Positions 9,301-27,561 of a DNA stretch of 40,488 nucleotides are shown here, piece after piece. The position numbers and the translations under genes were made by a program. The first letter of the stretch is position 1. Each line of letters starts with the position of its first letter. The notes under the pieces were generated by a model, which made no database searches, was not told the origin of the DNA, and saw nothing but the letters and a program-made list of their open reading frames with translations. The stretch is from a virus. The stretch is from positions 1 through 40,488 of IMG/VR virus record IMGVR_UViG_3300027856_000076. The stretch is one strand, 5' to 3'.

Positions 9301-11250
9301 ATGTCATTAGTAATACTACCAATTATGTACGTGCCAGACCCTGTAAAAGGCCGGCCTTTATTCAGCGGGCAAATATACGCGGGCACTGTTGACTTAGATC
9401 CCCAGGTGCAAGCAAACCAAGTTCAACTTTATGTAGTGCAGGAGGATGGAACATCCGTACCTGTCCAACAGCCTTTTTTGTTGTCTGCTGGCGGAGTCCC
9501 TGTATATAACGGCTCTTATGTTCGACTGGCTGTTTCTCAGGATAATTATTCGCTAAAGATTCTAGATAAGCAAGGCGCCCAGGTTTACTACTTTGATAAC
9601 GCAGCAGACGACGGAAGCGGAGGTACTGGAAGTATAACAATAGAAAGAACGTTTACTCTTTCTGATGGCCAGTTGGTTATTGATACCGGAGATTTGACGG
9701 CTTCAGGCGCGTCTTTTTATGTGGGTAGTCGAGGCGGAGACAGGGGAAGGCTTTTTATTGGTGATGACTACACCGTCACCGGAGTGACAGAAATACAGTT
9801 AACAAAATCATACCCTGCTGGCACTATTTGCACCGCTATTTCTGACGAGTACACTGGGCAGGATAATTTAACAGTTAGAAATACACCTTTCGGAACTACT
9901 ATATCGAACTATGAAAACCTTGTTGATGGCATTCATGTGATGGAGTCAGTAACAGGTAATGTTTACATGTTTTCCAATGCAAACCTATCTTTGGAGGTTT
10001 CTTTTGACAGCTTATCGGGGTACTACATTCCGCCCTCAACGGACTTAACCGGCGCTTCTGGTGCTTGGATTCTTGTAAGTGGCTCCATAACTGCTGATGC
10101 ATCCGTTATCGTAGGATCAGGGGAAAAGCACGAAACCATTAATTCACTACTGGCAGCGCTAGAAAACATCACATCAGCTAATAAAAATTCTATGGAGGTT
10201 ACCCTAAAGGCAGGCTTTGTGATGGCTGAGCAGGTTTTAATATACGGCAGCAATCTAGGGTGGATTAAAATAAGCTCGGTAGATTCAGAGGTTGTTGTTT
10301 CAAGGTCGGCTATGGTGCTTGATCTAGGTTCGTTTGATAGCTCGATACCTGCCTTTGGTGGTGTAAGCTCAACACTTCCCGTAATAAATACGGCATTCAG
10401 GATGGACACTAGTGGGTCTGCTATAGCAAGGCAGGACGGGTTGTTTGTTGAGAACGGCAACGCTATAATTTTACCTGGTGCCGGATTTCAGGATTTTACA
10501 GAGGTTGGAATATACGCTAACTCTGGTTCAGATATAACAGCAGAGGGCACCAATTGCAGTGGCAGTGGGGTTTATGGTTATTTTTCATTTAAAGCATCCT
10601 CTGTAAATTGTCAAAGTGCTATTGCTGATAATTGCGGCGAGTATGGGCTATATATAAACAGAGCATCACAAGGAAGCGCAAACCTTGCAAGATTTAACAA
10701 TGCGGGCGTTAACGCTGTAAGAGTGATCCGAGCGTCAACGCTGTCATGGGAAGATGGCGTTGGCATAGGGTCAGGAAGTGAAGGGTTGTATGTATTAAAC
10801 TCTGTGGCCCAGTGTTTAAGAGCCGATGTTTCCAACTCTGGACTGGCTGGGGTATACTCCCATGACTCGTCATCAGTTGGCTTTAGGGAAGGGGTTGCTA
10901 TAGCTTGCGGTGGCGAGGCTACAATATGGGCGTTTAGGCATGGGAATATCGACGCTGACAGTGCAATACTTACGGGGTCCTTATCATCCACTGCCGCAGT
11001 TTTGGCGCAGAGAGCATCAAATATAAATATTCAAGATTCAGACTGTTCAGGGTCTACAGCAACATACGGTATCAGGTGTTCAGAGTCGTCAAATACTAAC
11101 GCTAAAGATGCAAACGCTCAAAAGGGCGCGTCCCCAGCACCAGAGGATTGCTCTGTAGAGTTCGGAGGCACCATCGGTTTTAATGGTGGCACTGGTGGTA
11201 CAGATACCTCAGTTAACACTATTACCTCTAAAGGCATCATTTTTCAATAA
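9301..11250 (+). CDS. Tailspike with P22-type head-binding domain
   Basis: 649 aa (P22 tailspike is 667 aa). Residues 1 to about 100 match the P22 tailspike head-binding domain, including GQIYAGTVDLDP, ANQVQLYVVQEDG, PVYNGSYVRL and the closing YYFDN. The rest is Ser/Gly/Asn-rich with repeated short turns, a right-handed beta-helix that probably binds or cleaves surface polysaccharide; the catalytic residues cannot be assigned from sequence. A 149-base gap precedes it with AGGTGATAAA as ribosome-binding site, so it may have separate expression. It is the spike that attaches directly to the gp4/gp10 tail machine. Confidence 0.85.
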   Translation: MSLVILPIMYVPDPVKGRPLFSGQIYAGTVDLDPQVQANQVQLYVVQEDGTSVPVQQPFLLSAGGVPVYNGSYVRLAVSQDNYSLKILDKQGAQVYYFDNAADDGSGGTGSITIERTFTLSDGQLVIDTGDLTASGASFYVGSRGGDRGRLFIGDDYTVTGVTEIQLTKSYPAGTICTAISDEYTGQDNLTVRNTPFGTTISNYENLVDGIHVMESVTGNVYMFSNANLSLEVSFDSLSGYYIPPSTDLTGASGAWILVSGSITADASVIVGSGEKHETINSLLAALENITSANKNSMEVTLKAGFVMAEQVLIYGSNLGWIKISSVDSEVVVSRSAMVLDLGSFDSSIPAFGGVSSTLPVINTAFRMDTSGSAIARQDGLFVENGNAIILPGAGFQDFTEVGIYANSGSDITAEGTNCSGSGVYGYFSFKASSVNCQSAIADNCGEYGLYINRASQGSANLARFNNAGVNAVRVIRASTLSWEDGVGIGSGSEGLYVLNSVAQCLRADVSNSGLAGVYSHDSSSVGFREGVAIACGGEATIWAFRHGNIDADSAILTGSLSSTAAVLAQRASNINIQDSDCSGSTATYGIRCSESSNTNAKDANAQKGASPAPEDCSVEFGGTIGFNGGTGGTDTSVNTITSKGIIFQ

Positions 11251-12981: not shown

Positions 12982-13314
12982 TTATGCCCCGTTATTTAGT
13001 TTAATTATTTCAAATTGTATGAATTCTTCGCCTTTTTTAACCTTGACCTTTTCAGTTACCGCCCTGACAACTCGGTTATCATTAAAGCTATACTTCTTTT
13101 GTAAGCAATCTTGGAACGGTTTAATCGGATTATCCCAGTCACTACCGGCAGAGCTAAAGCCCCACTTCAAATGTAATTCTAAATCACCTTCCGGTATATC
13201 CATAGGGCGAAGCATTAGCAACACTGCCTTTTCAAAGTTTCGGTATTTTTTAGTCTTAACCCTTCTTCCTTGCCATGCTTCATTTACTGATAGCGGCTTA
13301 ATACTTAATATCAC
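12982..13314 (-). CDS. rusA: RusA-type Holliday junction resolvase
   Basis: 110 aa, the usual RusA size (120 aa in E. coli). The metal-binding motif is clear: D59 and D61 in DWDN, K65, D69, and D79 in NDN, matching the D.DN..K...D pattern that cuts four-way junctions. It would resolve recombination or replication intermediates before packaging. It is the last gene of the leftward operon and its start overlaps the stop of the preceding nuclease-like gene by 4 bases, suggesting coupled expression of two recombination enzymes. Confidence 0.9.
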   Translation of the reverse strand: MILSIKPLSVNEAWQGRRVKTKKYRNFEKAVLLMLRPMDIPEGDLELHLKWGFSSAGSDWDNPIKPFQDCLQKKYSFNDNRVVRAVTEKVKVKKGEEFIQFEIIKLNNGA

Positions 13315-13847
13315 GCGTTAGTCTCCAATATTGCATGATGATTAATCATCGGCGGCACGTCATAACCAGCGTTTGACATAGATGTTACAAGTTGCTCGTA
13401 AATATCACGCTGATTACCAAACTTTTTAACAAACTCTTTTTTTGAATGCCCTACATGAAATTGATGTTTTAAGTTAGGTTCATGCAATTCATACGGTACC
13501 GGTATTATAAACCAGTGGCCAATGTGTATTTTATTGTGCTTAGCGGTACGACCTAAAACATGATGTCGCTGTATATCGGTACGCCCCTCGTACTCGTGCC
13601 CGTACAGGTCACCCAAGCCGTTTTCGTTTACATAATCGGTAATGTCATCCATCCATTTTCGCTGTTTTACGTTTGCCTGTTTAGCCACTTCAGCCTCTCT
13701 TATTTTTGCTGTTTCTACTTTGTGTATAGATAATACTTTGCTGTTAAGTTGCTCAGATGTTTTAAATTTATATTGCGGCATACAGTCCAGTGATGCTTTC
13801 CTATTAGACCAAGCCCAATATTCTCCGTTTTTTATTTCACAGTACAT
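13311..13847 (-). CDS. Probable HNH-like/Ref-type nuclease
   Basis: 178 aa. The C-terminal half carries a histidine-rich metal-site pattern: RHHVLGR (near residue 96), KIHIGHWFIIPVPYELHE, and a downstream KKEFVKKFGNQ. This order (HH..G, hydrophobic strand, ELH, then E/K-F..K.G.Q) resembles the P1 Ref family of RecA-dependent nucleases, though the Cys pairs of many HNH folds are missing. The N-terminal 60 residues are unassigned. It overlaps the upstream small membrane protein gene by 16 bases and rusA by 4. Confidence 0.5.
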   Translation of the reverse strand: MYCEIKNGEYWAWSNRKASLDCMPQYKFKTSEQLNSKVLSIHKVETAKIREAEVAKQANVKQRKWMDDITDYVNENGLGDLYGHEYEGRTDIQRHHVLGRTAKHNKIHIGHWFIIPVPYELHEPNLKHQFHVGHSKKEFVKKFGNQRDIYEQLVTSMSNAGYDVPPMINHHAILETNA

Positions 13848-14729: not shown

Positions 14730-14876
14730 CTATAGTTGTTTATTGCGTAACTCAGCTAACCGAGCCTTTACCGCTTCATGCTCTTCAGGTGTCGCCCAGT
14801 ATGGGCGTTTAACCTTACCTTCTGCTTCGCACCTTGCTTTTAGCTCGGCTTGGCGAACTTTGTTTGATTTAGGCAA
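14730..14876 (-). CDS. Small charged helical protein, start uncertain
   Basis: The confident part is about 48 aa beginning LPKSNKVRQAELKARCEAEG and ending in a charged helix (PYWATPEEHEAVKARLAELR), a pattern found in small phage proteins of unknown function. A TTG at 14876 has GGAG 7 bases upstream and overlaps the previous stop by 8 bases, so it is preferred. The frame stays open to a TTG at 14942, which would overlap the neighbour by 74 bases. Confidence 0.5.
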   Translation of the reverse strand: MPKSNKVRQAELKARCEAEGKVKRPYWATPEEHEAVKARLAELRNKQL

Positions 14877-15177
14877 AATACAACTCCAGCGTTTCTTTTT
14901 TAATTCCACGCTGTAACATTTTTTTGTATATCGCTCTTGCAATCTTACAGCCTAACTCTTCATCTTTAACTAACTTAGCTGCCTTTGCGTTACCCGCTTC
15001 AGTTCCAGCTTCTTTTACATTAATCTGACCTTCGTTTGTTTGCATGTAAACCATACCAGCGAACTCTTCAAAAGAATCATACTCACCATTTTCAAGTTTA
15101 GACCAGTGAATGCCTTCAATGTAATCTTCGTACATTTCGTTAAGTTCGAAGTCGTTATCTTTAAGCCATTGTTTCAT
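14869..15177 (-). CDS. Hypothetical acidic protein
   Basis: 102 aa, acidic N-terminal half (MKQWLKDNDFELNEMYEDYI) and a basic helical C terminus. Translation starts after one of the four repeated AACAACGCAAC leaders. It is the first gene downstream of the palindrome-bearing promoter at 15209-15237. No family recognised. Confidence 0.65.
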   Translation of the reverse strand: MKQWLKDNDFELNEMYEDYIEGIHWSKLENGEYDSFEEFAGMVYMQTNEGQINVKEAGTEAGNAKAAKLVKDEELGCKIARAIYKKMLQRGIKKETLELYFA

Positions 15178-15208
15178 TTTGTTCTGCCGTTGCGTTGTTG
15201 ATGAAGTA

Positions 15209-15237
15209 ACTATAACCTATCGTTAGCGCTAACGCAA
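15209..15237 (-). promoter_or_regulatory. Leftward promoter with palindromic operator
   Basis: Read leftward: TTGCGT, 17 bases, TATAGT. The perfect 14-bp palindrome CGTTAGCGCTAACG (15221-15234) overlaps the -35 box and half the spacer, where a dimeric repressor would block polymerase. It would drive the genes from 15177 leftward separately from the main early promoter. A two-fold symmetric regulator (the Arc-like or HTH protein here, or a host factor) could act on it. Confidence 0.5.
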
Positions 15238-15246
15238 GTATTAATA

Positions 15247-15711
15247 TTAATTATTCTGTTCATCTATTAATTCTTGGTACTCTGACTTGCGAGGCTTAAA
15301 AAGTGTGATTCCTTTTATTGATGCCCACTCTTCATGTTTTCGTAACGCGTCGAACCTTTCGCCCCGGGTTGCCTTTCGTTGATCACCAGACTTTGCCCAA
15401 CTCAATCTAACGCCGTTTTCGTCTACCCCTAAATGCTGTCGTGTGAATAACTCATGGGCATCTTCTGAATTAAAAGGGCGACTACCATACCATTCACCAT
15501 CAGGCTTAATGTATAACGGCATAATAGCCCCATGCCCCGCCATATATTTAGCTGTTGTTGCCATCCATCCACGCCAAAGCCTATCCATTCCCCACTTTCC
15601 CGTTCCTGCTGGCTGTGAGTTAATGATAACTAACTTGTGTTCATCGATTTCAGCCTGTATATCATCCATGAATTGCTGAAGGTTATGATTGCTAACTTGT
15701 ATATCTTTCAT
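15247..15711 (-). CDS. Hypothetical protein, possibly NinB-like recombination accessory
   Basis: 154 aa. Features are GKWGMDRLWRGWMATTAKYM (about 39-58), then PFNSEDAHELFTRQHLG and KATRGERF. The Trp-rich helix and the position among recombination genes recall lambda NinB-type proteins, but the characteristic DQN..LW motif is not intact, so the assignment is weak. The start codon lies inside the 3' end of a 31-aa ORF, with AGGTG upstream. Confidence 0.5.
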   Translation of the reverse strand: MKDIQVSNHNLQQFMDDIQAEIDEHKLVIINSQPAGTGKWGMDRLWRGWMATTAKYMAGHGAIMPLYIKPDGEWYGSRPFNSEDAHELFTRQHLGVDENGVRLSWAKSGDQRKATRGERFDALRKHEEWASIKGITLFKPRKSEYQELIDEQNN

Positions 15712-22038: not shown

Positions 22039-22263
22039 ATGAGTAATTCAGATATGAAAGAACTTTACAAAGATGATGCCGCCGCATTGATGATGCTAGA
22101 TGGCGTGGAAGAAATAATGATTAACGCTAAATTATCACAATTAGAAAGCCTCAACAGTGAAATTAGATTTAACGGGTGCAATACGGTTTCAGATGTTATT
22201 GAGCTGATCGACGCTAATATGGTTTTGTTGAATAAAATGAAGATTGAAAAGGGGATTAAATAA
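22039..22263 (+). CDS. Hypothetical small protein preceding recT
   Basis: 74 aa, acidic helical (MKELYKDDAAALMMLDGVEE). It starts 23 bases after the structured leader's main stem with AAGGAATTAAC upstream; its stop overlaps the recT start (TAATG). The place is where a Gam- or Kil-like gene might sit, but the sequence supports neither. Confidence 0.6.
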   Translation: MSNSDMKELYKDDAAALMMLDGVEEIMINAKLSQLESLNSEIRFNGCNTVSDVIELIDANMVLLNKMKIEKGIK

Positions 22264-23147
22264 TGAGTGATTTGGCAGTAATCCAAAAGGATATTGAGGC
22301 CGGATTAATTGCGGCTGGCGTTGAGTCGGTACTTCCTGCATCAGTTAAAATGTCAACCTTTGTTAGATGCGCTGCCGTAGCCATGGCGAGTAGCTCAGAC
22401 TTAAAGCAAGCCAATACTGACAGCCTGATAATGGCTCTAACTCAATGCGCTAAAGATGGATTGGTTCCTGACAATAAAGAAGCGGCGATACTTACATTTA
22501 ATACAAAGGTAAAACATCAAGGCAAGCCTGATGAATGGGTTAAAAAAGCTCAATATCTACCAATGATTGACGGGGTAATGAAGCGAGCAAGGATGTCTGG
22601 CCAGATAGCCGTATTATCATCAAAGGCAGTTTTTAATGATGATCAGTTTGATTACTGGATGGATGAAAACGGCGAGCATATTAATTATAGGCCATCGTTC
22701 AAAGGTGGGGATATGCGCCTTGCTTTTGCCTTTGCTAAACTAACCTCCTGCGAATTAATTGTTGAAGTAATGAGTAAGGCTGATGTTGATAAAATTAGAG
22801 CATCAAGCAAAACTGGTACTTATGGCCCTTGGGCTGACTGGTATGATCGTATGGCGTGTAAAGCAGTTATGCACCGATTAGCTAAACGACTACCTAACTC
22901 TTCAGAAATAGTTGAAATGTGTGAGCAAGGCATGAATATGGATTTTGATGCCCGTACAGAAAAAGAGATTATTCCTCACGTTGAAAACCCTCTTGATAAA
23001 TTGGCTGTACTTATCGAAGGTAGAGATTTAGCAGCATTCTATCCATGGGTGTCAAAAAATATAGGCTCGGAAATAACGGAAATAAAACAACTGTCAGACG
23101 CTCAAGCCTCAGCGTTAGTTGAAAAGTTGGAGAATTCAAAACAATGA
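22263..23147 (+). CDS. recT: RecT-family single-strand annealing protein
   Basis: 294 aa. Typical RecT segments: KMSTFVRCAAVAMASSSDLK, SLIMALTQCAKDGLVPDNKE, AQYLPMIDGVMKRARMSGQI, GTYGPWADWYDRMACKAVMH and RLAKRLPNSSE. RecT anneals complementary strands exposed by its partner exonuclease. The exonuclease ATG overlaps the recT stop (ATGA), the standard pairing. It would repair and concatenate phage DNA before headful packaging and permits recombination with other phages. Confidence 0.93.
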   Translation: MSDLAVIQKDIEAGLIAAGVESVLPASVKMSTFVRCAAVAMASSSDLKQANTDSLIMALTQCAKDGLVPDNKEAAILTFNTKVKHQGKPDEWVKKAQYLPMIDGVMKRARMSGQIAVLSSKAVFNDDQFDYWMDENGEHINYRPSFKGGDMRLAFAFAKLTSCELIVEVMSKADVDKIRASSKTGTYGPWADWYDRMACKAVMHRLAKRLPNSSEIVEMCEQGMNMDFDARTEKEIIPHVENPLDKLAVLIEGRDLAAFYPWVSKNIGSEITEIKQLSDAQASALVEKLENSKQ

Positions 23148-23878
23148 GAAACTTCATAGAAGAACTAGCGAATCTTAAAGATTTATTTGGGTTTGATCCC
23201 TCGCTGATTGAACAGGGCGGCGATGAGTGGCATATACTTAGATGGGCGGTATTTACAGCAAGTAATTCAAAACATTTACTATCAACTAAAAGAGGCGCAA
23301 AAGGCACTGTTTACGGCACTGATTATGTAATAGCGCCGCCATCAACAGTTGGTCGCAAAACTTACATGGAAGATTTAGTTGCCATGGTAGCATCACCGCA
23401 CATACCTAGCGATATTGGTGCAAAACCTTTGGAGTGGGGAAAGGACAACGAGCCATTAGCAAGGGACGCATACGAGGGCTTAACCTTTAACTCAGTGATA
23501 GAGCTACCGTTTATATATAAAGATAAATCAATGCGCGCAGGGGCCTCGCCTGACGGGTTGGTTAATGCTATAAATGGTGGGCTTGAATTAAAAAGCCCAT
23601 GGTCTCGTTCAGTTTATATTAAATTCGCTTCTCAAGATAAAATGAAGCATGAGGAGCGCCATCAATGCCAATTCAATATGTGGTGTAGTGATTTAGATTA
23701 CTGGCATGTGGCAAAGTTCGACCCTCGCATGGTCAACTGTAAAAAGCTTCACATGGTTGAAGTTGAAAGGAGTAAAACGGCTATGGATATGTTTGATGAA
23801 TCAATAGGGCTATTTACAGAAGAGATGGATTTAATGCTAGATAAACTGGGTATGTCATTCGGCATGCAGTGGAATTAA
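23144..23878 (+). CDS. Lambda-exonuclease/YqaJ-type 5'-3' exonuclease
   Basis: 244 aa. The PD-(D/E)XK site is visible: D137 in AGASPDG, then E148 and K150 in LELKSPWS, preceded by the helix LEWGKDNEPLARDAYE (E103). A downstream Gln-bearing helix (HQCQFNMW) also fits the family. It degrades one strand from DNA ends and loads RecT. The 88 bases to the SSB gene contain no other gene. Confidence 0.92.
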   Translation: MRNFIEELANLKDLFGFDPSLIEQGGDEWHILRWAVFTASNSKHLLSTKRGAKGTVYGTDYVIAPPSTVGRKTYMEDLVAMVASPHIPSDIGAKPLEWGKDNEPLARDAYEGLTFNSVIELPFIYKDKSMRAGASPDGLVNAINGGLELKSPWSRSVYIKFASQDKMKHEERHQCQFNMWCSDLDYWHVAKFDPRMVNCKKLHMVEVERSKTAMDMFDESIGLFTEEMDLMLDKLGMSFGMQWN

Positions 23879-23966
23879 AAGGCGACGGGTGAGGCAGCGT
23901 TAAGGCTTCAGGTCCCGAGCGGTACAGAAGTTTATATCTTAAATAAATAATCAGGAGTATAGAAAA

Positions 23967-24479
23967 ATGGCAGGTGTAAATAAAGTAATATTATTAGGTA
24001 ATTTAGGGCAAGATCCAGAAGTTCGTTTTATGCCGTCGGGCGGGGCAGTAGCTAACTTAACAGTGGCAACCTCTGAAAGTTGGAAGGATAAACAAACCGG
24101 TGAGCAGAAGGAAAAAACCGAGTGGCACAAGGTCGCTATCTTTGGGAAGTTAGCCGAAATTGCAGGCGAATACTTAAATAAAGGCTCAAAAGTTTACCTG
24201 GAAGGCTCATTGCAAACACGAAAATGGCAGAATCAGCAAGGTCAAGACCAATACACTACTGAAATAGTGGTACAAGGATTTAACGGTGTTATGCAAATGC
24301 TTGACGGTAAGCCACAAGGACAGCAAGCTCAAGCGCAGCAACCAGCGCCACAACCAGCGCCACAAGGCAACTACCAACCAGCGCCACAGAATTACAGCAA
24401 CCAAACGCCAGCGCAGCAGAATCAGCCATATAATGTGCCTCAACAGTCACAAGGTGGATTTATGCCTAATAACGGATAA
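23967..24479 (+). CDS. ssb: Single-stranded DNA-binding protein without the acidic tip
   Basis: 170 aa. Residues 1 to about 110 are a bacterial SSB OB-fold ([54 protein letters not shown]). The linker is Gln/Pro/Ala-rich. It ends GGFMPNNG: the DDDIPF-like tail by which host SSB recruits repair proteins is missing, and no alternative frame restores it. It probably coats single strands for RecT without calling host enzymes. Ribosome-binding site CAGGAG. Confidence 0.93.
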
Positions 24480-24497: not shown

Positions 24498-24560
24498 ATA
24501 TAACCTTTATTATTCAGAGGAAACGGCTTCTTTGTTTTCCTTTGTAATTAGTTGTTAGGC
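24498..24560 (+). repeat. attC-like site A
   Basis: R'' ATATAAC (24498-24504), R' GTTAGGC (24554-24560), 63 bp. Inner arms CAGAGGAAAC and GTTTTCCTTTG pair with one unpaired T, as attC hairpins have. It is nearly identical to site D except for the cores. Its R' extended (GTTAGGCGG) matches the R'' of site B, the end of cassette 1. Confidence 0.78.
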
Positions 24561-24591
24561 GGGTAACTAATAAATAAAAGTGAGAATTAAG

Positions 24592-24855
24592 ATGAAAACA
24601 GTAAAAGAAAGTATTTTTAGTGGAAAGACTGTAATTATACCCATGGCGGAAGTGCAGCATATTGAGCGCGATAAGCGCAACGGGTTCGAGGATGGTATAA
24701 GTATTATATTTAAAAGTACACGATGGAGCACTGAGATGGACGCGTGGGATAATACAGCATACTTACGGCACTACGAGGCTGAAAGCTTTTTAAAGTGCTG
24801 GTGCAAATACAGGGCGGAACTTGAGTCTGATGTATTGATGGATTTAACCGCCTAA
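24592..24855 (+). CDS. Cassette 1 gene, hypothetical
   Basis: 87 aa. ATG 24592 is preceded by GTGAG; an in-frame GTG at 24580 has no site. No recognised domain; contains MAEVQHIERDKRNG and FLKCWCKYRAELE. The stop TAA is inside the closing inverse core GCCTAAC, typical of cassette genes. With opening core 24554-24562 and closing core 24848-24856 it is a complete cassette. Cargo of unknown function. Confidence 0.7.
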   Translation: MKTVKESIFSGKTVIIPMAEVQHIERDKRNGFEDGISIIFKSTRWSTEMDAWDNTAYLRHYEAESFLKCWCKYRAELESDVLMDLTA

Positions 24856-24880
24856 CCTTTATGTTAAGCGCGTTGCGCAA
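24850..24880 (+). repeat. attC-like half-site B
   Basis: R'' GCCTAAC, spacer CTTTAT and left inner arm GTTAAGCGC are present, but no right arm or GTT core follows; the gene at 24895 begins at once. Its arm resembles that of site E (GCGTTAAGCGG), whose loop contains a fragment of the same gene start. Confidence 0.6.
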
Positions 24881-24894
24881 ACTAGGAGAATACA

Positions 24895-25209
24895 ATGAGT
24901 ACAGATTACAAAGCAATATTAGAGAGTACGAGTAACCACCAGCCAGCTGTAAGCAATCCGCTTGAACATGTTGTTAGCAGTGATTCAGACAGGCTCAAGC
25001 TTGAATTGACAGTTAGGGGCAGTAAAGGCATAGACTTCGAGGAAGGTTATTCTACGGGAGATATGACTGAGGGTGGCCTTGCAATTAACACTTGTTGGTG
25101 GGTAGAAAAACAAGCAAGGCTTGGGGGTTGCTTGGATAGAGGGCAGGTTCGGGAGTTAAGGGATTATCTAAATAAGTGTATAAGCAAGTGGGATGATGAA
25201 TCCTGCTAA
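24895..25209 (+). CDS. Cassette-region gene, hypothetical (paralogous start recurs at 25658)
   Basis: 104 aa. AGGAGAATACA precedes ATG. N-terminal 20 residues (MSTDYKAILESTSNHQPAVS) are repeated almost exactly at 25658. The remainder (VRGSKGIDFEEGYSTGDMTE, CWWVEKQARLGGCLDRGQV) has no recognised motif. The stop overlaps the inverse core of site C. It lacks its own opening core, so it is either a cassette that lost its left junction or one that grew from a site-B loop. Confidence 0.65.
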   Translation: MSTDYKAILESTSNHQPAVSNPLEHVVSSDSDRLKLELTVRGSKGIDFEEGYSTGDMTEGGLAINTCWWVEKQARLGGCLDRGQVRELRDYLNKCISKWDDESC

Positions 25210-25332
25210 CCTTGAGCTAAGAGGTTGTGTAGCCTATTAAGCCAACCAGACTACACAAAAAACTTTGTAGCTATTTGAGGCTACACAAAAACAGCAAACA
25301 AAAAACAATCCTGCTTTAGTGGGTTGTTATGT
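25204..25332 (+). repeat. attC-like site C, long type with cruciform centre
   Basis: R'' TGCTAAC (25204-25210), R' GTTATGT (25326-25332), 129 bp, in the size range of long attC/VCR-like sites. Left arm CTAAGAGG pairs with right arm CCTGCTTTAG if G and T stay unpaired, the hallmark extrahelical bases. The centre has a perfect inverted repeat, TTGTGTAGCC / GGCTACACAA, and a smaller one inside. Confidence 0.75.
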
Positions 25333-25362
25333 GTAAACCAACTAAAGATAAGGGGTAAAGGA

Positions 25363-25617
25363 ATGGTAGATACTTATGAATTAGCAACAAGTCTCGCAAA
25401 TGATTTGGCTGAGGATTACTTTGCTGGAAATATAGCCGATATGATGATTGAGGGGGGCAGGGATAAAGCCAAGGATATACGTGAATTATCAGAGTCAAAC
25501 ACAGATCAATTAAATAAGCATGTACAAGAGTATAGGCGAGAACAAAGGGTTATTTATTCAGCGCTATATGATTTGATAGAAGGGTACAAGGGCTACAAGA
25601 TAGTGAAAGACACATAA
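25363..25617 (+). CDS. Cassette 2 gene, hypothetical helical protein
   Basis: 84 aa, strongly helical and acidic/charged (ELATSLANDLAEDYFAGNIA, LNKHVQEYRREQRVIYSALY). AAGGGG and AAAGGA precede ATG 25363. The opening core (GTTATGTGT, 25326-25334) and closing core (ACACATAAC, 25610-25618, containing the stop TAA) are a perfect 9-base match, the clearest cassette here. Function unknown. Confidence 0.7.
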   Translation: MVDTYELATSLANDLAEDYFAGNIADMMIEGGRDKAKDIRELSESNTDQLNKHVQEYRREQRVIYSALYDLIEGYKGYKIVKDT

Positions 25618-25744
25618 CCTTTTGCGTTAAGCGGCTACGAAATTAAAGGAGAAAACCATGAGTACAGATTATAAAGCAATGTTAGAGAGTACAAGTAACC
25701 ACCAGCAAACTGTTAGTAGTCCCACTTGCACGGCGTTGTTATGT
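25612..25744 (+). repeat. attC-like site E with a gene fragment in its loop
   Basis: R'' ACATAAC (25612-25618), R' GTTATGT (25738-25744), 133 bp. Stems GGCTAC / GTAG-T-CC and GCGTTAAG / CTTGCACGGC resemble those of site G; right end ACTTGCACGGCGTTGTTATG is the same as in G. The ~85-base loop holds the start of the paralogue of the 24895 gene, an unusual insertion. Confidence 0.72.
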
Positions 25745-25756
25745 TACCGCTACTAA
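25658..25756 (+). pseudogene. Truncated copy of the 24895 gene start, inside site E
   Basis: The ORF begins MSTDYKAMLESTSNHQQTVS, 16 of 20 residues matching the 24895 protein, with its own AAAGGAG site, then reads through the attC right arm (SPTCTALLCYRY) to a stop. Only about 60 bases are homologous. It is probably a remnant of a rearrangement that joined the start of one cassette gene to the right half of another attC. It could still be translated as a 32-aa peptide. Confidence 0.7.
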
Positions 25757-25784
25757 CTAAATTTAAAATAGTTTGATTTAACTG

Positions 25785-25812
25785 TTGTAATACTCAAATA
25801 GTTTGATATAAT
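25785..25812 (+). promoter_or_regulatory. Promoter within cassette 3, with direct repeats
   Basis: TTGTAA, 16 bases, TATAAT, a near-consensus promoter about 45 bases before the first ORF of the cassette. AAATAGTTTGAT occurs twice (25766-25777 and 25796-25807), one copy covering the spacer up to the -10, as expected of an operator pair. Confidence 0.6.
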
Positions 25813-25858
25813 AGTTTCAAGAGTTACGAAGCAACCAACTAAAACAAGTGAGAGTATT

Positions 25859-25984
25859 ATGACTACATACAACCAAGAAGCACTTACCGCACTTTACAAA
25901 TCTTTAGAGTTTATGGAATGTAACGACTTACCATGTGAAGAAGTTAAGGCGGCAATTAACGAAATAGAAAGTAACAGAAAATAA
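25859..25984 (+). CDS. Cassette 3, first ORF, 41 aa
   Basis: 41 aa, acidic helical (NQEALTALYKSLEFMECNDL). GTGAGAG precedes ATG. First of three ORFs in the cassette bounded by GTTATGTTA (25738) and TAACATAAC (26620); directly downstream of the promoter. Confidence 0.55.
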   Translation: MTTYNQEALTALYKSLEFMECNDLPCEEVKAAINEIESNRK

Positions 25985-25993
25985 TTAAGAGGT

Positions 25994-26007
25994 AGCCCTT
26001 CGGGGCT
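25994..26007 (+). terminator. UUCG hairpin between ORFs of cassette 3
   Basis: AGCCC-TTCG-GGGCT, a very stable tetraloop hairpin followed by TGTATTT. The stem is only 5 bp and the T-run is broken, so it is at best a partial terminator or RNA-stabilising element. Confidence 0.4.
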
Positions 26008-26017
26008 TGTATTTAGT

Positions 26018-26197
26018 ATGAATATAAGCGCAATGACTGATGAACAATTGCAAAATAAAGCAGAAATACTACACGCTTTGTTTGGTAATATGCCGAACAC
26101 TGACGAGCGCAAAGGGCATTTTATTGAGTGGGCAAGAGTTCGAGCAGAGCAATCAAAGCGAATTTATCGGGGCGGTGGTAAAAATGACAGCAAGTAA
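26018..26197 (+). CDS. Cassette 3, second ORF, 59 aa
   Basis: 59 aa, helical (TDEQLQNKAEILHALFGNMP) with a basic C terminus (RVRAEQSKRIYRGGGKN). The following gene starts inside its last codons (14-base overlap), suggesting the two are translated together. No clear ribosome-binding site upstream. Function unknown. Confidence 0.5.
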   Translation: MNISAMTDEQLQNKAEILHALFGNMPNTDERKGHFIEWARVRAEQSKRIYRGGGKNDSK

Positions 26198-26600
26198 AGA
26201 TGCAAAAAAGATAGGACTAAAGGGCTTGGTGAGAGTAGCGCAAGAGACTGGGCAAAGCTTGCAAACATTAATTAACTGGCATAAAAATAAACCAAAACTA
26301 TTTAATGTCGTGTTGTTTGGTTGTAAATCCATAGAAGAAATTAAGGTTTTAGCTGATATGGTTTACGATGATAAGCACGAAGTAGCTAGAACATTGGCTA
26401 TATCCAATCGACTTAAAGAGTTAGTTCAGTTTGATACGCATTATATTAATGAGTTGGCCGTGAATAATTGCGCCAATATAGAAGATCATATAGCTAAAGC
26501 TTGTGAGTGTGGGAGTGTTAACTTTGCGCTACTAAAAAGCGGTAAAGTTGAATGCAACAAATGCGGTGAGATCCATAAGATAAGCTGGGCTGATAGTTAG
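26184..26600 (+). CDS. Cassette 3, third ORF: HTH plus zinc-ribbon protein
   Basis: 138 aa. Residues about 8-44 (GLKGLVRVAQETGQSLQTLI then NWHKNKPKLFNVVLFGC) match the small HTH module of phage and cassette regulators, with NWHKNKP as its signature. C-terminal CECG...CNKCG (about 107-126) forms a zinc ribbon. GGGGCGGTGG lies upstream of ATG 26184. Could regulate the cassette's own promoter with its direct repeats. The stop lies 13 bases before the closing core. Confidence 0.65.
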   Translation: MTASKDAKKIGLKGLVRVAQETGQSLQTLINWHKNKPKLFNVVLFGCKSIEEIKVLADMVYDDKHEVARTLAISNRLKELVQFDTHYINELAVNNCANIEDHIAKACECGSVNFALLKSGKVECNKCGEIHKISWADS

Positions 26601-26613
26601 GCTTGGCTTAGTA

Positions 26614-26676
26614 ACATAACCTTTATTATTCAGAGGAAACGGCTTTATCGTTTTCCTTTGTAATTAGTTGTTATAT
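26614..26676 (+). repeat. attC-like site D
   Basis: R'' ACATAAC (26614-26620), R' GTTATAT (26670-26676), 63 bp. The middle matches site A except for four loop bases (CTTT versus TATC), and both run identically up to GTTA, beyond which the flanks differ (GGCG versus TATT). That break is where integron recombination joins cassettes. Confidence 0.78.
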
Positions 26677-26704
26677 TTTGCCGCAAACACAGGAGTGGAA
26701 ACGA

Positions 26705-26836
26705 ATGACACAGAACGAAATAAATAAAATGTACGCACTGGAGGCGGCATTTAATGACTTAGAAAGCGGGGAATTAACCGCTAGAGAGTACGAGAACGTA
26801 GTTGCTAGAATTGAAGAAGATCACGAATATGATTAG
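26705..26836 (+). CDS. Cassette 4 gene, 43 aa
   Basis: 43 aa, acidic helical (NKMYALEAAFNDLESGELTA, YENVVARIEEDHEYD). AGGAGTGG precedes ATG. Opening core GTTATATT (26670) and closing core AATATAAC (26846) match over 8 bases; the stop TAG lies 2 bases before the closing core. Function unknown. Confidence 0.6.
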   Translation: MTQNEINKMYALEAAFNDLESGELTAREYENVVARIEEDHEYD

Positions 26837-26839
26837 GCA

Positions 26840-26875
26840 ATATAACCTAGAGCTAAACGGCAATTAACTGCCACA
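26840..26875 (+). repeat. attC-like half-site F
   Basis: R'' ATATAAC, spacer CTAGA, left arm GCTAAACGGC with a small GGCA/TGCC hairpin. No right arm or GTT core follows before the lipoprotein gene. GGCAATATAACCT is shared with site A. Confidence 0.55.
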
Positions 26876-26905
26876 AATAAAAATTTAATTACGGAGTGTA
26901 TGATT

Positions 26906-27151
26906 ATGAAAAACAACAAACTGTTAATTGTCCTTTTGAGCGTGTTGTTAGTTTCGCTTTCTGGGTGTGACAAAGGGAGCGTTTTTAATGGGGAACAAAT
27001 GCTAACAGACAGAACCACTAGATTAGAAATGTCTGGATTTGATGGGCGGGTTTATGAATTCACACCTAAAACAGCACCACACATGCAGTGCGTATTCGTT
27101 GCGGCAAGTAGAAAAGGCGGATTAGTGTGTTTTGAGAAGAAAGCACACTAA
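26906..27151 (+). CDS. Cassette-region lipoprotein
   Basis: 81 aa from ATG 26906 (GGAG 9 bases upstream); an ATG two codons earlier is too near that site. Signal sequence KNNKLLIVLLSVLLVSLSGC ends with a lipobox (LSGC), followed by D, which predicts retention in the inner membrane. The mature part has two further Cys (AAHMQ-type region CVF and GLVCF). The stop lies in the inverse core CACTAAC of site G. Surface lipoproteins carried by phages often block superinfection; that is inference. Confidence 0.75.
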   Translation: MKNNKLLIVLLSVLLVSLSGCDKGSVFNGEQMLTDRTTRLEMSGFDGRVYEFTPKTAPHMQCVFVAASRKGGLVCFEKKAH

Positions 27152-27213
27152 CCTTTGCGTTAAGAGGCTTTACAGCTACTTCGTAAAGTCCTACTTGCAC
27201 GGCGTTGTTATGT
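27146..27213 (+). repeat. attC-like site G (most complete)
   Basis: R'' CACTAAC, left arm GCGTTAAGAGG, central stem CTTTAC / GTAAAG, right arm CCTACTTGCACGG, R' GTTATGT; 68 bp. The inner arms pair as AAG-AGG with CCT-A-CTT, the extra A and a second extra T being unpaired bases on one side, as in real attC sites. Its R' extended matches the inverse core of site H. Confidence 0.8.
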
Positions 27214-27244
27214 GACGCGTTAATTGATAACTGGAGAATTATTG

Positions 27245-27448
27245 ATGGATAAAGATAAGACGATTAAAAACTGGAAATGGTGGATTGTACTGCCTCTTGT
27301 ACTTCCTGTGGTTGCGGTAATTTCAGTGCCCAAGGTTGTTATACTTGTACTTGAATTTATGATTGCCGCCGTAGAGCTTGTGAATGTAGGAGAGAAAGGC
27401 AGTAAGCTTTCAAAACGCCTTGTTAGCTGGGTACAGAAAGACACATAA
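27245..27448 (+). CDS. Cassette 5 gene: membrane protein
   Basis: 67 aa with two hydrophobic stretches (WWIVLPLVLPVVAVISVP and VVILVLEFMIAAVELV) and a basic C terminus (KGSKLSKRLVSW). ATG 27245 has GGAG 8-9 bases upstream. Opening core GTTATGTG (27207) and closing core CACATAAC (27449) match; the stop TAA is inside the closing core. Possibly an envelope-acting peptide. Confidence 0.7.
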   Translation: MDKDKTIKNWKWWIVLPLVLPVVAVISVPKVVILVLEFMIAAVELVNVGEKGSKLSKRLVSWVQKDT

Positions 27449-27500
27449 CACTGTAACTAAGGAGATTAAATCCTTCTTTCACACATTGGACCAGCAAGGT
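27443..27500 (+). repeat. attC-like site H, degenerate
   Basis: R'' ACATAAC followed by AACTAAGGA / TCCTT pairing, but no convincing right core; the nearest candidate is GTTAACT around 27498. It is the last element of the array, a damaged terminal site. Confidence 0.45.
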
Positions 27501-27561
27501 TAACTATCTGTTTTGATGTGTGTTTAACTTTTTATCACGAATTTTACGGGGAAATACGGAA

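Follow-up and report, generated by a model that had tools for sequence, protein, structure and literature searches.

Integrons are regarded as a bacterial device, and their cassettes are read outward from the attI site. Clusters of attC sites lacking an integrase (CALINs) were reported in virulent phages in 2023, together with tests of attC activity (Qi et al., PMC9892861), and attC sites of phage H101 were recombined by IntI1 in Escherichia coli (PMC9892861). Here we characterize such a cluster in a marine phage, the IMG/VR record IMGVR_UViG_3300027856_000076, the whole of which (40,488 bases, classed as linear and perhaps incomplete) was analysed and is referred to as the window. Seven attC sites and seven cassettes were found at 24498-27449, between ssb and lysis-type genes, in a genome that codes for terminase, portal, head and tail proteins with matches in phage families. 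The original prediction, made from the letters of this DNA, had placed a cassette array without an integrase at these coordinates. Its features are present there, no tyrosine recombinase domain (PF00589) was found in the record, which may be incomplete, and the block was confirmed as a genuine array of integron-type attC sites and cassettes in a phage genome that has no integrase. We consider it probable (roughly 0.6) that the array belongs to a phage lineage, and that a host integrase acting in trans shuffles its inverted cassettes at an attI-like end.

The evidence for cassettes comes in the first place from the unit ends. Every unit begins with GTTAnnnn and ends with the reverse complement of its own start, and the linking sites, 63-133 bases in length, all fall inside 2.7 kb, where two or more close sites would suffice for a CALIN. 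Between 24470 and 27600, GTT...AAC pairs with reverse-complement identity of at least 8 nucleotides (nt) numbered seven against 1.3 expected, the maximum in 200 Markov shuffles being five; six of the seven are cassette ends chained head to tail, and the seventh (26981-27271), which does not belong to the chain, is attributable to chance. Within the window alone, 2 of the 5,040 permutations of closing cores among the seven cassettes reached the observed fit. Across 65 units from the window and related phages, own-end cores matched at 4.85 of 6 variable positions, compared to 2.41 for cores flanking the same attC and 2.49 for shuffled pairs (maximum 3.08 of 2,000). Because own ends match above both neighbours and shuffles, this is the signature of cassettes and not of simple palindromes; a core match no better than in shuffled sequence, which the original prediction had named as refuting it, was not observed. 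The core sequence common to both ends of each cassette is that expected of integron cassettes. Five such units had been listed at first; those five are correct, and two more exist at 24973-25210 and 26947-27152, which were probably overlooked because their gene starts sit within a long attC loop.

The same matching bears on the explanation that the spacers are intergenic hairpins, either terminators or translation elements, that were spread by ordinary phage mosaicism and are not recombination sites. Terminator-like hairpins are enriched in the 22-29 kb region (12 against 5.4 expected), and a start codon and leader are present in several of the attC loops. However, each unit end matches its own partner, some 170-880 bases away, and not the adjacent ends, and the phage attC model also matches the attC sites of class 1 integrons. 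We consider this explanation highly improbable.

Covariance models were built on a hand-set structure; RNAalifold on a MAFFT alignment gave no structure, and the arms have indels. Model R2 was trained with the window sites included, and model R3 with the window left out. R2 detected all seven window sites on the plus strand and no further site in the 40,488 bases. R3, which holds no window sequence, detected five of the seven (E values from 1e-7 to 9e-4), and both of the sites that it misses are 130-133 nt long with long loops. An attC covariance search, the check suggested alongside the original prediction, therefore finds sites at the positions of the array. Covariation between the arms was greater than in all shuffles and all slid controls. 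It was also noted that Rfam gave no match within the array, and that BLASTN with the array found no match among 50,697 phage and 72,556 plasmid records.

The attC sites stand in inverted polarity to the genes. This polarity was measured by counting the bulged bases per arm in an arm-pairing alignment, and the bulges lay mostly in the right arm in 51 of 59 phage-family sites, in the left arm in one, and were tied in seven. Among 11 control sites, which came from E. coli class 1 integrons, bacterial contigs and phage TJE1, ten had them in the left arm and one was tied; gene direction is less certain for control contig C218 of a metagenome-assembled genome (MAG) than for C51. Of the 68 phage units, 66 have their longest open reading frame (ORF) on the model strand, which is the gene-sense strand in the window phage. 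In E. coli class 1 integrons the phage model detects the attC sites of aadB and catB3 antisense to the two genes, and the three attC sites of Tetrasphaera phage TJE1 are likewise detected antisense to their genes. The canonical arrangement, with attC 3' of its gene and extrahelical bases antisense to it, is thus not that of the phage family as a whole, and the ordinary orientation originally assumed is not supported. In the published CALIN of phage H101 (L147 25919-27987; KR534323, about 75.9-78.0 kb), bulges were found in the right arm at 4/4 sites, so that it is inverted as in the phage family and unlike TJE1. The H101 result suggests that the orientation of published phage CALINs deserves re-reading.

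In the Vibrio cholerae repeat (VCR), inverted extrahelical bases shift crossover to the R'' box (PMC2727003). By analogy, that shifted box would correspond here to the TAAC core at the left of each site, and the mobile unit would be an attC with its downstream gene, which fits the gene starts located inside attC sites. Our model predicts crossover at this left TAAC core and insertion at the right-end element. Fusion of attC-encoded leaders to incoming cassettes was considered and dropped, as the polarity suggests that an attC and its downstream gene form one unit. Linkage of attC with neighbouring genes is only suggestive, with eight downstream cases against zero upstream in a set of 34 non-independent pairs; of four homologous gene pairs, two were linked downstream and two upstream.

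With the attC sites inverted, an attI would be expected at the 3' end of the genes, and a constant element closes the array at that end (27449-27560, minus strand), with a TAA/CACTG junction (the slash marks the boundary). A TAA/CAC junction was found at the array ends of the window, L098, L091, L089, L094, L097 and L099 (L numbers denote phage contigs or segments of them); of the 59 internal sites, 58 have TAACC instead. Ten copies, on nine phage contigs, share a conserved stretch of about 110 bases after the junction, and the cassette side is variable. The motifs TAACACTG and TTTYACACATTRGACCAG are near-fixed in the element, although conservation there is partly imposed for those copies that were fetched with a pattern fixing these letters; the copies of the window, L098, L091 and the MAG phage were found without that pattern. 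Short hairpins of differing sequence occur in most copies and are individually not significant. On these sequence features, the element is a candidate attI-like site. Two near-identical ends of this kind were observed in L141 (8505-8553 and 11738-11786), each closing an array, with a further array segment close to the contig end.

Terminase relatives of the window phage are common, and L001 and L010, whose ssb regions are comparable to that of the window, have no array there. Relatives were sought with short exact attC arms, a longer exact pattern having matched no viral record; these searches placed the same attC type in at least a dozen other phage contigs. The L090/L137 array follows an ssb-like gene and stands ahead of homologues of the window genes at 27.5-28.3 kb, while that of L089 (the same contig as L041, TerL 91% identical) follows a DnaB-like helicase gene. 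The L098 array comprises 16 units, and the type was also found in L091, L092, L094, L097, L099, L101/L141, L140 and L142-L145, and in a phage contig of 42 kb that was assigned to a gammaproteobacterial MAG by binning. L144 represents a minimal form, with an ssb-like gene, one attC-like site of weak model score, one gene and the end element. Contigs L093, L095 and L096 had exact matches and no model match, and were treated as chance.

Individual cassettes recur among phages in differing contexts. Cassette 2 of the window recurs in L098 (88% over 271 bases), one cassette is shared by L097 and the MAG phage (91% over 302 bases), another by L092 and L144 (85% over 275 bases), and a methyltransferase cassette by L097 and L099 (92% over 786 bases). 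The shared cassettes stop exactly at the closing core and not within the attC bodies. The same genes and spacers in all relatives, named beforehand as an outcome against shuffling, were not observed: the nearest comparable relatives are without the block and others carry different cargo.

The window cargo has no known function, in agreement with its first description as unassigned, and PADLOC identified no defence protein among it. Among the genes carried by related arrays are those for N6/N4 and D12 methyltransferases and for Lar-type proteins. Two L098 cassettes (10287-11193 and 13179-13550) resemble early-region DNA of the window (14743-14871 and 15173-15253), there outside the array, as if phage early genes with their upstream control region had been turned into cassettes in L098. 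We assessed the source of the pool with exact attC arms, which are a narrow test of its origin: the 20-mer CTTGCACGGCGTTGTTATGT was found in four IMG/VR contigs and in 0 of 84,980 prokaryote genomes, and the 19-mer TTGAGCGTGTTGTTAGTTT in five IMG/VR contigs and in two contigs among the same genomes, namely a Bacillaceae contig without covariance-model support and the MAG phage contig. These matches speak for a phage-specific pool more than for ferried bacterial cassettes. The original prediction had derived the cassettes from bacterial integrons, against which stand the inverted polarity, the near-absence of the arms from prokaryote genomes and the early-region cargo in L098. Of its proposal that cassettes are ferried, the sharing between phages in different contexts holds, and the transport of bacterial cassettes is less favoured than a phage-specific pool.

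These observations also address a single capture, in which illegitimate recombination would have brought part of a host's chromosomal integron into the phage on one occasion, leaving it to decay as ordinary cargo. Such a capture was suggested for phage CALINs by Qi et al. (PMC9892861), gammaproteobacterial contigs of one MAG hold attC sites recognised by the phage model, and the relatives L001 and L010 are without the block. It is nonetheless improbable, since many phages share cassettes and ends, all genes have an orientation to attC that is the reverse of that in bacterial cassettes, the two tested attC arms were not found in bacterial DNA, and the two ends of each cassette still match well.

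No integron integrase above the family cut-off was found in the phage contigs tested. Two tyrosine recombinases were rejected as candidates: that on the L099 contig (L102) appears by eye to be of phage type, and that on the L144 contig (L149) is short and far below the TIGR02249 cut-off. L102 (IMGVR_UViG_3300021197_001693, 40 kb, carrying the L099 array) has a ParA-like gene along with this 395-amino-acid integrase and is perhaps a phage-plasmid.

Because the phage is without an integrase, insertion and excision would have to be carried out by an integron integrase that an integron-bearing host provides in trans. In the proposed mechanism, a fixed attI-like site would lie at the right end (27449-27560), with the cassettes stacked from there toward ssb. 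In the integron frame, on the minus strand, attI and attC would be canonical and every gene would be on the other strand. In the phage frame, a unit would consist of attC, gene and closing core, with all genes directed toward attI. The genes for a recT-like annealing protein, a RecE/lambda-type exonuclease and ssb adjoin the array upstream (22263-24479, plus strand; phrog_148, phrog_149 and phrog_44 in PHROGs), and this cluster is the probable source both of read-through transcription and of single-stranded DNA handling for the array. Expression would probably occur by read-through from this operon, sometimes helped by a start codon in an attC loop or by a cassette-borne promoter, as in cassette 4. 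The host integrase would act on attC hairpins of single-stranded phage DNA, and the phage RecT, exonuclease and SSB may add homologous exchange at the repeated attC bodies. In this way, small phage genes, those for DNA methyltransferases and Lar-type restriction-alleviation proteins among them, would form a common pool that is shuffled from phage to phage.

Several points weigh against a host integrase acting at an attI-like end. The L090/L137 array is without the end element, its place being occupied by another gene, and the element could owe its conservation to a role in regulating the genes downstream of it. It was also found that attC bodies up to 97% alike lie between genes unrelated on both sides, and that the gene common to L092 and L144 can be without both attC bodies; with these two findings, a single crossover point is insufficient. 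The MAG holding the related phage gave XerC/D-like matches only, below the integron-integrase cut-off.

Some of these points favour another explanation, in which the cassettes are integron-derived and are now shuffled by phage RecT/exonuclease (Red-type) homology at attC bodies of 60-130 bases, with no integrase acting. The recT, exonuclease and ssb genes adjoin the array, the near-identical bodies lie amid unrelated genes, and no phage contig has an integrase of integron type. However, own-end cores match over 8-12 nt yet differ between units, and keeping this match needs selection or repair via a circular hairpin intermediate. Shared cassettes end at the closing core and not inside attC bodies, and the constant end has the form of a half-site, sharply bounded at TAA/C. 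RecT-type exchange at the attC bodies is a serious rival, or partner, of the host integrase, and we regard it as unlikely to account for the shuffling by itself.

The sites and genes of the array all lie on the plus strand. The first site, attC A (24498-24560; R2 42.8 bits, R3 38.1 bits), has a left core, AATATAAC, that begins 18 bases after ssb and looks like the leftover end of a lost unit. At the ssb of the MAG phage contig (CAJXPP010000002.1, L105 436-980), a second ssb-like start (MAGVNKVII...) and an HNH-like ORF were observed ahead of the full ssb, as if an endonuclease gene had been inserted there. Cassette 1 (cores GTTAGGCGG at 24554 and CCGCCTAAC ending at 24856) encodes a protein of 91 amino acids with no family match (24580-24855). 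The loop of attC B (24850-24979, 130 bases; R2 29.9 bits) holds the ribosome-binding site and start codon of the next gene, that of cassette 2 (24895-25209, 104 amino acids; cores GTTAGCAG at 24973 and CTGCTAAC ending at 25210). Between attC C (25204-25332; R2 35.9 bits, R3 26.0 bits) and attC D lies the gene of cassette 3 (25363-25617; cores GTTATGTGT at 25326 and ACACATAAC ending at 25618). The 133-base attC D (25612-25744; R2 41.1 bits) has a leader ORF in its loop and is 95% identical to a site in L090 across 131 bases. Cassette 4 (25738-26620) contains three small ORFs at 25859-25984, 26018-26197 and 26184-26600, the last encoding 138 amino acids; it has a sigma70-like promoter at 25785-25812, and the region is 91% alike in L097.

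The next site, attC E (26614-26676; R2 44.9 bits, R3 42.6 bits), is near-identical to attC A, and is followed by the cassette 5 gene (26705-26836, 43 amino acids; cores GTTATATT at 26670 and AATATAAC ending at 26846). The loop of attC F (26840-26953; R2 59.3 bits, R3 39.9 bits), which is 91% alike in L098, holds the start codon and signal peptide of the following gene. In sites of this type (the window; L098 9059-9172; L099 330-448, minus strand; L135 4808-4921), the lipoprotein signal peptide is encoded across the right core, and it leads into different mature proteins in the four phages. Class 1 integrons are already known for short ORFs inside attC and for leader-coupled translation at attI (PMC8876359). 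The cassette 6 gene (26900-27151) encodes a predicted lipoprotein (MKNNKLLIVLLSVLLVSLSGC...), with weak matches to phrog_31944 and phrog_27004 and a lipobox assigned by eye; its end pair is the weakest, at 6 nt only (GTTAGT at 26947, ACTAAC ending at 27152). After attC G (27146-27213; R2 41.6 bits, R3 30.7 bits), cassette 7 encodes a predicted membrane protein (27245-27448; cores GTTATGTG at 27207 and CACATAAC ending at 27449). A tRNA-Pro (TGG) gene was also observed on the phage (window 38855-38931).

Should a host integrase shuffle these cassettes as proposed, the array would be a viral gene-exchange platform reliant on a host enzyme, which would explain the trade of small genes, including those for methyltransferases and Lar-type proteins, between phages. 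We put forward more tentatively that the marine phage lineage may keep a platform of its own, comprising a dedicated attI-like site and a phage-specific, reverse-oriented pool whose leaders or signal peptides are often encoded within attC, and in which host integrases shuffle early and anti-restriction genes. The reversal of the genes agrees with their expression from a phage operon on the far side of the array, and would keep the phage pool apart from bacterial cassettes.

We found no report of inverted phage cassettes or of a phage attI-like end in the literature, mostly open-access, and Qi et al. (PMC9892861) report no inversion, attI-like end or cassette-sharing phage family. The CALIN of the Pseudoalteromonas phage H101 (PH101) is like the window array in its integrase-less attC sites, four of which are found by the phage model and are inverted to the genes, but it belongs to an unrelated phage of 132 kb. 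The CALIN of TJE1 likewise resides in a virulent phage near an ssb gene and has three attC sites, but with a polarity canonical to the genes. Gammaproteobacterial sedentary chromosomal integrons and CALINs share the small genes of mostly unknown function; similar attC sites occur on the bacterial contigs of MAG SRR3933271_bin.2, where they are canonical wherever gene direction is clear. The class 1 integrons of E. coli plasmids share the R- and L-box attC geometry and the extrahelical bases that the phage model recognises, but they possess intI1 and attI1, and their genes run away from attI.

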